The notes under the pieces were generated by a model, which worked only from the letters and a program-made list of their open reading frames with translations, was not told the DNA's origin and searched no databases. A DNA stretch of 35,006 bases, from contig JAJPHY010000117.1 of NCBI GenBank assembly GCA_021325015.1, positions 1 through 35,006 on the forward strand, in the 5' to 3' direction. The translations under genes and the position numbers were made by a program. Shown piece after piece: positions 25,564 through 29,048 of the stretch; the stretch's first letter is position 1; each line of letters begins with the position of its first letter. The DNA is from Actinomycetota bacterium (GTDB taxonomy: Bacteria > Actinomycetota > UBA4738 > HRBIN12).

Positions 25564-27519
25564 ATGTCGGAGGGGGAGGATCGAGCACGGGCGGCCACGG
25601 CGCTGCTCCGGCAGCTCTGGCTCGGCCTGTCGGCGTATCGCCTGTTCCCGGGAAGCGTGGACCGTCCGGGGTTCGTCGCGGCGGTGGAGCGCATCGACGC
25701 CGCCGCCCGCACCGCGCTGGCGTCCGGAGTCGTCGACGTCGAGATTCGCGGCGATCGGCTGATCCTGGGCGGGCAGGAGATCCCCAGCGACGAGCAGCTG
25801 CGCCGGCTTGCGCTCGCCTGCTTCGAACGACGGGTCGAGCGGCTGGTCGTCACGGCCGTTCCCGACGCGGAGGAGCTGAGTGGGCTGTATGCGGTGCTCT
25901 CGAGACCCGAGTCGGAGCTCTCTGAGGCTGGTGGAGCCGACGAGGCCCTGCGCGCCCTCGGGGTGACCTCCGTCTCGCTCGCCGCGATCGGACCCGCGCC
26001 GGTGGAGGGGGCGGACCACGTCCCCGACGAGCTTGCGTACCCGCCCGAGGAGCGCCCGCTGGACGCCGACGTCCTGGCCTCGGAGCTGATGGTCGAGGAC
26101 CTCCACGGCGACCCCGTCGACCAGGCGGAGACGTTGCTCTCTCGGCTCCGTTCGATCCTCGAGAGCGCGGCCGCTCCCCCCGGACGGGCGATCGACCTCC
26201 ACGCGACGGTGCACAACGTGATGAACGACCTTCCCGCGGACATCCGCCGATCGCTGGTCGAGATGCTGATCGACCACGTCCGCGATGATCCGCTGGCCGA
26301 ACGGCTCATCGGCACGATGAGCAACGCCGAGCTCACTCGGGCGCTCGTGGACCTCGGCGGCCGGGGACGCCGGGATCCCGTGGAGCTCGCCCGGCAGCTC
26401 GCGCAGGCCGGCATCCGCCAGATCGACCTCGTCGATCTCACCCGGGCGCTGGAGGCAGGGCACGAGGAGGCGGGAACGATCATCACCGGCCTCGAGCAGC
26501 TCGGGATCGACCTCGGGATGCCGGGGGCGGAGCCGGCCGCGAGCTCGGTCACCGAGATCCTCTCGGAGTACCTGTCGGCCACCGAGGCCGATGACGTTCG
26601 GGCGATGCGGACGGCCATCGACGCGACCGAGGAGCAGGCCAGGTCGGTGGCGCTGCTTGCGCTCGGCGACTACCTCTCGCTCGAGACCGATCTGGACCGC
26701 GCCGGCGAGGTGCTGGAGATCTGGATCGAGGAGGTGCGTCGCGCGCTCCGGGATCGGGATTCGCGTGCCGTGGAGACCCTGTTGCAGCCGATCCGCGAGG
26801 CGCTGCCAGTTGGGACGGACGAACGCGGACCGCTCATGGAGAGCGCCGTTCGCCGCGGTCTCGACCGGGATCTCGTCATGGAGCTCGTGGCGTCGGACCG
26901 GGCTCAGGAGCCGTCCGAAGCGGCCGACCTCCTTGCGCCGTTCGGCGATCTTGGGGTGGAGGTCCTCCTCGATCTCCTCGCGGAAGAGGAGGATCGCAAC
27001 CGGCGCTCGATGCTGCTCGCCGTCCTCCGCCGCCTGGCACGCGGACACCTCGGACCCGTCCGGGCGCGGCTCACCGACCCGCGGTGGTACGTGGTCCGCA
27101 ACGCGGTTGCGGTGCTGGGCTCGGCGTCGGGTCCGGAGGCGCTCGACGTGATCGCCCTCGCCTCCCGTCACGAGTCGGCTGCCGTCCGGCAGGAGGTGGT
27201 GACCGCCCTCGTGGCGGCCGGTGGGGCGGCCGCGGTCCCGCACCTCGCGCGCCTTGCCTCCGAGGGCGACGAGGAGGTGCGCCGGCTCGCCGTCGGGCAG
27301 CTCGGCATCCTCGTCGGGGCGGACGCGGCCGGGGCGCTGGCCGAGGTCGCGCGCAGCTCGCGGGATCGGGCGCTTCGACTGCTGGCGCTCCAGGAGCTCG
27401 CGCACCGTCCCGAGGGGCCGGCCATTTTGCGCGAGCTCGGCTCGCGGGCCTCCCGCCCCCGCCTGCCTTGGGGGCTCCGCCGCCGGGCGCGCTCCCTCGC
27501 CCGGGGGGGGACGTCGTGA
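25564..27519 (+). CDS. HEAT-repeat protein with N-terminal module shared with the next gene
   Basis: A 651-residue acidic, mostly helical cytoplasmic protein with no membrane segment. Residues 21-118 (GLSAYRLFPGS, then DVEIRGDRLILGGQEI, LRRLALACFERRVERLVV and ELSGLYAVLSRPE) appear homologous to residues 25-120 of the following HD-GYP protein. The middle (about 180-460) is a helical solenoid of unknown type. The C-terminus (about 470-620) has classical HEAT units: ARLTDPRWYVVRNAVAVLG, VRQEVVTALVAAGG, VRRLAVGQLGILVG. HEAT domains bind proteins, so it may be an adaptor of the HD-GYP enzyme. ATG 25564 has GGGGGA before it; GTG 25516 or 25531 would extend it by 16 or 11 residues. The stop overlaps the next start (GTGA). 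Confidence 0.75.
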   Translation: MSEGEDRARAATALLRQLWLGLSAYRLFPGSVDRPGFVAAVERIDAAARTALASGVVDVEIRGDRLILGGQEIPSDEQLRRLALACFERRVERLVVTAVPDAEELSGLYAVLSRPESELSEAGGADEALRALGVTSVSLAAIGPAPVEGADHVPDELAYPPEERPLDADVLASELMVEDLHGDPVDQAETLLSRLRSILESAAAPPGRAIDLHATVHNVMNDLPADIRRSLVEMLIDHVRDDPLAERLIGTMSNAELTRALVDLGGRGRRDPVELARQLAQAGIRQIDLVDLTRALEAGHEEAGTIITGLEQLGIDLGMPGAEPAASSVTEILSEYLSATEADDVRAMRTAIDATEEQARSVALLALGDYLSLETDLDRAGEVLEIWIEEVRRALRDRDSRAVETLLQPIREALPVGTDERGPLMESAVRRGLDRDLVMELVASDRAQEPSEAADLLAPFGDLGVEVLLDLLAEEEDRNRRSMLLAVLRRLARGHLGPVRARLTDPRWYVVRNAVAVLGSASGPEALDVIALASRHESAAVRQEVVTALVAAGGAAAVPHLARLASEGDEEVRRLAVGQLGILVGADAAGALAEVARSSRDRALRLLALQELAHRPEGPAILRELGSRASRPRLPWGLRRRARSLARGGTS

Positions 27520-29048
27520 GCACCCAGACGGGCTCCGAGCCGGAGATCGCGAAGGCGCGGGAGATGCTCCGTGCGCTCTCGTCGGCGCGGCAGGTGTACG
27601 CGTTGTATCCGGACGGGCATCCGAAGCGGCGCGAGGCCGCGCAGGAGCTCCTGAGTCTGGTCCTGGAGCTTCGGGAGGCCAAGGGAGGCGGTCACCCGGT
27701 CCTGTTCGTCTCCGAGGGCAACTTCTACTACGGGACCACGCTGCTCGCCTGGGAGTCCCTCACGCTGTACCGGCTCGCGCAGGCGATGGGCGATGCGGGC
27801 GTCCAGTCGCTCGAGTTCCTGCCGAACCCGACCGAGGCCGACACCGACGCCCTCGTTCGACTCCTGACCGGCGACGAGCGGGGACGGGACGTGCTCGTCG
27901 CGGTCGCGGTAAACCGCGCCGGTCCGAGCTCGCGCCCGGAGGAGCTCCAGCGCGGCATCGCCGAGCTGCTCCGCAACTACGCCGTTGGCCTCGAGCTCCT
28001 TCGCGAAACCGCCGCCCGCCTGCTCGCCGGGCGCCCCGCCGACATGGACGCGACCGTGAGACTCACCGAGCACCTCGCGGACCTCATCGCGGCCGACACG
28101 GCCCAGGCGCTCCTGCTCACCACGATCAAGTCCTACGACGAGTACACGTACCACCACATGGTGAACGTCTGCATCCTGTCGCTCGCGATCGCGCGCGCGA
28201 GCGGACTGTCCAAGGACCAGGCGGTCGTCCTCGGGATCGGCGGGCTCCTGCACGACGTCGGGAAGGTCCGCGTGCCGCAGGAGATCCTTCAGCACGACGG
28301 CGCCCTCGACGAGGAGCAGTGGCGACTGATCCAGCGTCACCCCGTGGACGGCGCCGGGTTGGTGCTGATCACGAGCCGCAACGCGTTCCACCCCGCGGTC
28401 GCCACGGTGCTCGAGCACCACGCCGCGTTCGACGGCTCGGGGTACCCGAGACTCTCTGGTCATCGAGCCCCGTCACTCGCCTCGCGGATCGTCGCGGTCG
28501 CCGACTGCTTCGACGCGATCACGAGCAAGCGGTCGTACCGCAAACCCGAGGAACGGCGCCAGGCGCTGAGCCTCATCCAGGCCGGTGCGGGCCGATCCTT
28601 CGATCCGCGTGTGGTCCGCACCTTCGTCCGGCTCATGGGCATCTTCCCCGTCGGGTCGCTCGTGCAGATCTCGACCGGCGAGGTAGGTGTGGTCGTTCGC
28701 AACCACGATCGGTTGCTCGCACGGCCCACCATCCGTCTCGTGCTGGACGCACACGGGAACGCTGCGGAGCCGATCGAGATCGACCTTGCCGAGCAGGCGG
28801 CGGACGGCTCGTTCCGGTGGACCGTCACCAGGAGCCTCGACCCCGTCGACGTGGGGATCGACATGCTGCCGCTGCTCGCGTCCGGGCGCCTGGACTCCCC
28901 GCCCGCAGCGGCGCCGCCGGGGCTGGTCCACGAGCCGGCGCCAAGCGAGGAGCCTCCCCCCGGCTACGTCGACGCGCACCACGAGGTCACGGCCGACCTG
29001 CCGGACCTGCCCGTCGACCGGGACGCCGCCCCGCCGATGCCCGACTGA
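27516..29048 (+). CDS. HD-GYP domain protein (cyclic di-GMP phosphodiesterase-type)
   Basis: A 510-residue signalling enzyme. Residues 25-120 form the same non-catalytic module as in the upstream HEAT protein (VYALYPDGHPKRREAAQELL, then LFVSEGNFYYGTTLLAW). The HD-GYP core (about 205-375) is complete: HHMVNV, LLHDVGKVRVPQEIL with H246-D247-K250, H275, and then EHHAAFDGSGYPRLSG with HH301-302 and the GYP triplet 309-311; ASRIVAVADCFDAITSKRSY with D330 follows. So c-di-GMP hydrolysis is plausible. A C-terminal beta-rich part (GSLVQISTGEVGVVVRN) often follows HD-GYP domains. The end is a Pro/Asp-rich tail. GTG 27516 overlaps the HEAT gene stop, so the pair is co-translated. Confidence 0.9.
   Translation: MSTQTGSEPEIAKAREMLRALSSARQVYALYPDGHPKRREAAQELLSLVLELREAKGGGHPVLFVSEGNFYYGTTLLAWESLTLYRLAQAMGDAGVQSLEFLPNPTEADTDALVRLLTGDERGRDVLVAVAVNRAGPSSRPEELQRGIAELLRNYAVGLELLRETAARLLAGRPADMDATVRLTEHLADLIAADTAQALLLTTIKSYDEYTYHHMVNVCILSLAIARASGLSKDQAVVLGIGGLLHDVGKVRVPQEILQHDGALDEEQWRLIQRHPVDGAGLVLITSRNAFHPAVATVLEHHAAFDGSGYPRLSGHRAPSLASRIVAVADCFDAITSKRSYRKPEERRQALSLIQAGAGRSFDPRVVRTFVRLMGIFPVGSLVQISTGEVGVVVRNHDRLLARPTIRLVLDAHGNAAEPIEIDLAEQAADGSFRWTVTRSLDPVDVGIDMLPLLASGRLDSPPAAAPPGLVHEPAPSEEPPPGYVDAHHEVTADLPDLPVDRDAAPPMPD

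Follow-up and report, generated by a model that had tools for sequence, protein, structure and literature searches.

A conserved gene pair encodes a HEAT-repeat protein and a probable HD-GYP phosphodiesterase with related N-terminal domains

Where the control of an HD-GYP enzyme is understood, the protein in most cases has a sensor or receiver domain that can be recognised. The gene pair analysed here, which encodes a HEAT-repeat protein and an HD-GYP protein in a 35,006-nucleotide stretch of an Actinomycetota genome (assembly GCA_021325015.1, contig JAJPHY010000117.1; hereafter the window, meaning the whole stretch), resembles several described systems and differs from each of them. Its HD-GYP protein has the same catalytic domain as RpfG and PmGH of Persephonella marina (PDB 4mcw, E 4.4e-24) and matches PmGH at seven of eight metal ligands, at Asp183 and Lys225, and in the GYP motif. 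However, it has Tyr210 in place of the bridging Glu185 of PmGH and HHA in place of HHE, its N-terminus is an undescribed module rather than a GAF or REC domain, and it has a HEAT-protein neighbour that looks obligate. A separate partner protein controls the cyclic di-GMP (c-di-GMP) enzyme in systems such as H-NOX with diguanylate cyclases and SwDGC, which are covered in a review of c-di-GMP inputs (PMC8846402). The putative partner in the window is likewise a separate protein, but it is a HEAT solenoid that lacks any known sensor domain and has one domain paralogous to a domain of the enzyme. DvhD of Desulfovibrio vulgaris, in the abstract of PMC13090378, is an HD-GYP c-di-GMP switch, the dCache receptor of an adhesin/protease operon; a HEAT partner like the one seen here is not mentioned in that abstract. 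HEAT_2 and PBS-lyase-like HEAT proteins have C-terminal HEAT units like those of the window's HEAT protein, which adds to them an N-terminal module, a long helical middle and an RWyvvR motif; NCBIfam models for NblB and lyase scored far under their cut-offs on it. The initial annotation of the window knew of no described system with this layout, in agreement with the open-access literature, in which we found no description of the pair or of the module (subscription papers lay outside this scope); the main text of PMC8846402 does not mention HEAT. The components are of known kinds; what is new, as far as could be seen within the literature covered, is the input domain together with the fixed partnership.

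The two genes lie on the forward strand of a draft genome of 2.6 Mb in 169 contigs, and their coordinates and 4-base overlap had been placed correctly in the initial annotation:

25564-27519, forward strand: HEAT protein gene, the upstream partner, ATG at 25564, 651 residues, stop ending at 27519 (translation; Pfam HEAT_2, E 3.6e-10; 5' of its HD-GYP partner gene in all pairs read)
27516-27519, forward strand: overlap of the HEAT stop and HD-GYP start, reading GTGA (sequence; frame overlaps in other pairs are counted below)
27516-29048, forward strand: HD-GYP protein gene, GTG at 27516, 510 residues, stop ending at 29048 (translation; Pfam HD_5, E 5.4e-24)

Judged from its sequence, the GTGA overlap is likely to couple translation of the two genes. 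Both proteins open with copies of one undescribed domain, as established by profile comparison, and these copies occupy the following positions:

25588-25983, forward strand: N-terminal shared module, HEAT-type copy, residues 9-140 (module profile E 1.2e-33 in its own genome; hhalign)
27549-27896, forward strand: N-terminal shared module, HD-type copy, profile match at residues 12-127 (module profile E 1.6e-35; hhalign)

BLASTP of the window's HEAT protein against its HD-GYP protein showed no similarity between the N-termini, so that a comparison of profiles was needed. The HD-side set consisted of relatives of the HD-GYP N-terminus, and the HEAT-side set of the gene directly upstream of each relative, picked by position alone. 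Alignment of the HEAT-side profile (19 rows) with the HD-side profile (23 rows) by hhalign gave a probability of 99.4 and a P of 5.7e-21, with a score of 119.8 over 124 columns; 20 column shuffles and one reversed profile scored at most 15.6, with shuffled P values of at least 0.05. More diverse sampling (19 against 21 rows) gave a P of 1.3e-31 over 133 columns. The initial annotation had proposed a duplicated N-terminal module of about 95 residues, to be checked by this kind of alignment. The duplication is borne out by the strong match, and the length is to be revised to about 130 residues, because the module also includes the '..GG....L...gv..I.v' end. AlphaFold2 models of both modules, built from few sequences and of modest confidence (pLDDT 67 for the HD-type module), have a largely similar order of elements: two helices, hairpin strand(s), a helix, a strand, two helices and a strand.

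Searches for a known family gave no assignment of the module. Neither N-terminus of the window proteins was matched by Pfam, and a scan of 22 members found no convincing family in Pfam or NCBIfam. Foldseek with the model of the HD-type module found no solved structure at E <= 0.001, and a known sensor or receiver domain (GAF, PAS, REC and others) was matched neither in Pfam and NCBIfam nor among solved structures. A mixed module profile matched the BTB domain of BCL6 (E 5e-4); this match disappeared with a HEAT-only profile and had E 0.36 with an HD-only profile, and we judged it to be due to chance.

The HEAT-type and HD-type modules arose by a single old duplication and form nearly two clean clades. 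Across a tree of 124 modules, including those of stand-alone HEAT proteins, the two types were separated by two label changes against about 40 with shuffled labels, a tree that has few columns and many unresolved forks and is also compatible with a single change. The distances among HEAT modules correlated with those among their HD partners (Mantel r 0.83 for 47 pairs, permutation maximum 0.19). Because part of this correlation is shared species history, it shows joint inheritance and not contact.

Used as a single-sequence query, the HD-GYP N-terminus had relatives in 25 of the 397 genomes sampled from the window's phylum, and genes called around these relatives included a HEAT gene directly upstream nearly every time. 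Matches to the module profile, sampled in three phyla only, were present in 62 of the 397 genomes and in 96 of 148 Nitrospirae; the third phylum, that of a Nitrosomonadales genome, contributed one weak partial match in 1 of 299 genomes. At gene level we read at least 71 distinct HEAT/HD-GYP adjacencies (54 and 17 more), with the HEAT gene upstream in all. According to start codons from a simple custom gene caller, the frames overlapped in 43 of the 54 listed distinct pairs, mostly by 4 or 11 bases. Among the best 150 listed matches per phylum, 43 pairs in one phylum and 44 in a second were neighbours on the same strand at a distance of 1.6-2.5 kb, and neighbours on opposite strands were absent. 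No one-frame fusion of HEAT and HD-GYP was present among the proteins called. The two-gene unit that the initial annotation had thought worth seeking in other genomes is therefore conserved, in two phyla and with co-divergence of its partners.

The HD-GYP protein contains these further features:

28125-28613, forward strand: HD-GYP catalytic domain, residues 204-366, with seven binuclear ligands and GYP (88 bits in the search of its own genome; alignment to PmGH 4mcw; ligand list of PMC4159591)
27936-28103, forward strand: two-helix linker, residues 141-196, joining the module to the catalytic domain (AlphaFold2, helices at 141-170 and 177-196)
28638-28865, forward strand: C-terminal extension after HD-GYP, residues 375-450 (alignment; conserved across the family)
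28866-29045, forward strand: proline-rich tail with GLVHEPAPSEEPPPGYVDAHH (alignment; conserved in close relatives only)

Pfam HD_5 matched the catalytic domain with 85 bits against a cut-off of 27.2. By alignment to 4mcw, the PmGH metal ligands H189, H221, D222, H250, H276, H277 and D305 correspond to H214, H246, D247, H275, H301, H302 and D330, the catalytic pair D183/K225 corresponds to D208/K250, and GYP is at residues 309-311; the initial annotation was right in calling the catalytic domain intact. The seven ligands are common to both HD-GYP subgroups, and the Y-T-Y (Y/F) subgroup is predicted to be binuclear (PMC4159591). Tyr210 stands at the position of PmGH Glu185 in a Y-T-Y motif, and the E/D-T-G signature of the trinuclear subgroup is absent. 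The consensus HHExxDGxGYP reads HHAAFDGSGYP in the window, keeping all but the Glu, which is absent in all 53 full-length members. On this sequence evidence the window protein is probably a cytosolic, binuclear phosphodiesterase of the Y-T-Y subgroup with intact catalytic residues, and c-di-GMP would be its substrate. Of the 53 full-length members, 49, among them the window protein, keep the ligands, and four have YD in place of HD. These YD members, which keep GYP and the other ligands, are L075:9086-10567 (+), L077:10875-12341 (+), L078:5175-6641 (-) and L081:6504-7946 (+). A tail reading GLVHEP[AS]..E..P.GYVDtH lies 3' of the HD-GYP extension in the window and in loci L067-L069 and L071-L074; the proline-rich tail is possibly a docking peptide.

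In the HEAT protein we distinguish two further elements:

26893-27408, forward strand: HEAT solenoid, about residues 444-615 (Pfam; AlphaFold2 helices; PDB alphaRep matches at 444-603)
27076-27102, forward strand: HEAT-unit motif DPRWYVVRN, residues 505-513 (recurrence of the motif in partners)

HEAT_2 matched residues 530-613 with 40.4 bits against a cut-off of 27.7, and AlphaFold2 modelled residues 451-620 as helices with pLDDT mostly of 85-94, which together with the HEAT_2 score identifies HEAT repeats. The motif [DEHN]xRWx[VLAF]xR occurs in 36 of 53 partner HEAT proteins, in both phyla, against 0.2 of 53 expected in shuffled proteins, and D.RWyvvRN is a candidate contact surface. A match of residues 270-317 to His_biosynth (E 9.7e-5) fell under the curated cut-off and corresponds to a small fragment of a barrel, although this region is helical; we judged it to be due to chance. 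Stand-alone HEAT proteins of about 780-1260 residues that carry this N-module and lack an HD-GYP neighbour are encoded at L093, L094, L095, L097, L098, L100, L102, L129 and others, and some of these genes adjoin genes for a low-molecular-weight phosphatase and a Sua5-like protein.

GGDEF proteins are encoded in all 20 pair-carrying genomes tested, with six in the window's genome. At four neighbourhoods (L151, L161, L167 and L168) a GGDEF gene on the strand of the pair lies no more than 50 bases from it. A stronger link to c-di-GMP than these neighbours comes from single proteins in which module and HEAT units are combined with GGDEF and an AAA_16 ATPase (L101:4024-8193 (-), 1390 residues, and L111:6591-10451 (+), 1287 residues; genomes G250 and G260). 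The HEAT-plus-module unit, elsewhere paired with a phosphodiesterase, here shares one chain with a cyclase domain. These two proteins are possible ATPase-coupled diguanylate cyclases.

We consider it fairly probable that the pair is a dedicated c-di-GMP unit, in which an HD-GYP phosphodiesterase works with a co-translated HEAT regulator or scaffold and both carry one duplicated domain. Translation of the shared message would yield the HEAT protein immediately ahead of the enzyme. The two N-modules would then associate with each other, the HEAT solenoid would dock on the HD-GYP enzyme, or both, and whatever the solenoid binds would set the activity or location of the phosphodiesterase via the two-helix linker. 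Module homology, the intact active site, the pairing and the co-divergence are read in the sequences; physical contact, the direction of regulation and c-di-GMP as substrate are inferred, as are the heterodimerisation and the tuning of c-di-GMP breakdown by the HEAT protein that the initial annotation had suggested. The paralogous modules would be the obvious contact between the partners, a plausible assignment because duplicated dimer domains often become heterodimers. More tentatively, and with confidence somewhat short of even, the pair may represent an obligate hetero-complex derived from a duplicated dimerisation module, a widespread undescribed class of c-di-GMP regulator that in some lineages is joined or fused with a diguanylate cyclase, the scaffold coupling synthesis to breakdown.

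Several observations weigh against a dedicated c-di-GMP unit. The HEAT partners of one lineage (L082, L085 and L104) lack the N-module and the pair is still present, so that contact between modules is not general or obligatory; this lineage suggests that the solenoid alone can suffice. The YD members may be inactive or receptor-like, in which case the unit would not always be an enzyme. HD-GYP enzymes are able to use other cyclic dinucleotides as well: one structure, 5z7c, is named a 3'3'-cGAMP phosphodiesterase. The four GGDEF neighbours are weak to modest evidence, since GGDEF genes are common in these genomes.

The module might instead be a targeting or ligand domain by which each protein binds a common third partner or small ligand, the two not binding each other. 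The many module-bearing HEAT proteins with no HD-GYP partner, and the two occurrences within GGDEF/ATPase proteins, indicate that the module can work outside the pair and speak for such a role. We nevertheless regard this explanation as rather unlikely, as the strict adjacency, the frame overlap and the co-divergence suggest a role more specific than shared targeting.

Alternatively, the modules might homodimerise on each protein, with HEAT and HD-GYP sharing a pathway and touching via the solenoid only or never. N-terminal dimer domains often control HD-GYP and GGDEF outputs, and persistence of the pair after loss of the HEAT module in the L082, L085 and L104 lineage would be expected under this arrangement. 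However, both paralogous modules are retained in nearly all pairs across two phyla, and homodimerisation of this kind seems to us somewhat improbable.

We think it quite unlikely that, instead of acting as an enzyme, the HD-GYP part serves as a receptor switch for c-di-GMP whose output goes through the HEAT protein. This logic has a precedent in DvhD, an HD-GYP protein that is a switch dependent on c-di-GMP according to the abstract of PMC13090378 and that the YD members possibly resemble; in these four paralogues the His of the HD pair is gone but GYP remains. The HD pair and the other ligands are, however, kept in all the other full-length members, among them the window protein.

Passive linkage of co-inherited neighbours that have no joint function, for which one may cite that both proteins belong to large and common superfamilies, is very improbable, because the pair is kept amid fully changed neighbourhoods, across two phyla and among several paralogous copies within one genome, and because module-less control HD-GYP genes have no such neighbour (at 25 further loci for HD-GYP proteins of the window's own family, flanks of up to 1.5 kb contained neither a HEAT nor a module gene). 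We also considered an anti-phage defence system and rejected it, as PADLOC gave only weak generic HEAT and HD matches (E 3e-4 to 5e-3).

The neighbourhoods of the pair, with gene names read from translations, vary accordingly. The window pair is flanked by ligA and one more gene upstream and by gatC, gatA and gatB downstream; elsewhere a raiA-like gene, a response regulator gene and secA (L082 and L084), tatC (L003) or pilus genes (L072) are found. A response regulator gene, the HEAT gene and the HD-GYP gene lie directly upstream of secA in L082, L084 and L104, and in L082 and L084 a raiA-like (hibernation factor) gene precedes the regulator gene. In many Nitrospirae pairs a conserved protein of 90-94 residues (IRGKS.KA...DIAEGY..VNP.FLKPL) is encoded directly 5' of the HEAT gene, for example at L131:3628-3912, L132:3675-3959, L143:2899-3177 and L003:3921-4199 (behind tatC), and at other loci.

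Together these results describe a large group of HD-GYP proteins whose input domain is unrecognised and whose HEAT partner is fixed; the module is present in about two thirds of the sampled Nitrospirae and about one sixth of the sampled genomes of the window's phylum. If the proposed unit is real, the module would be a new domain family and a candidate for Pfam, and the pair would offer a way into the control of c-di-GMP in major environmental lineages for which little is known about it. The conserved pair points to an unstudied route of c-di-GMP control.

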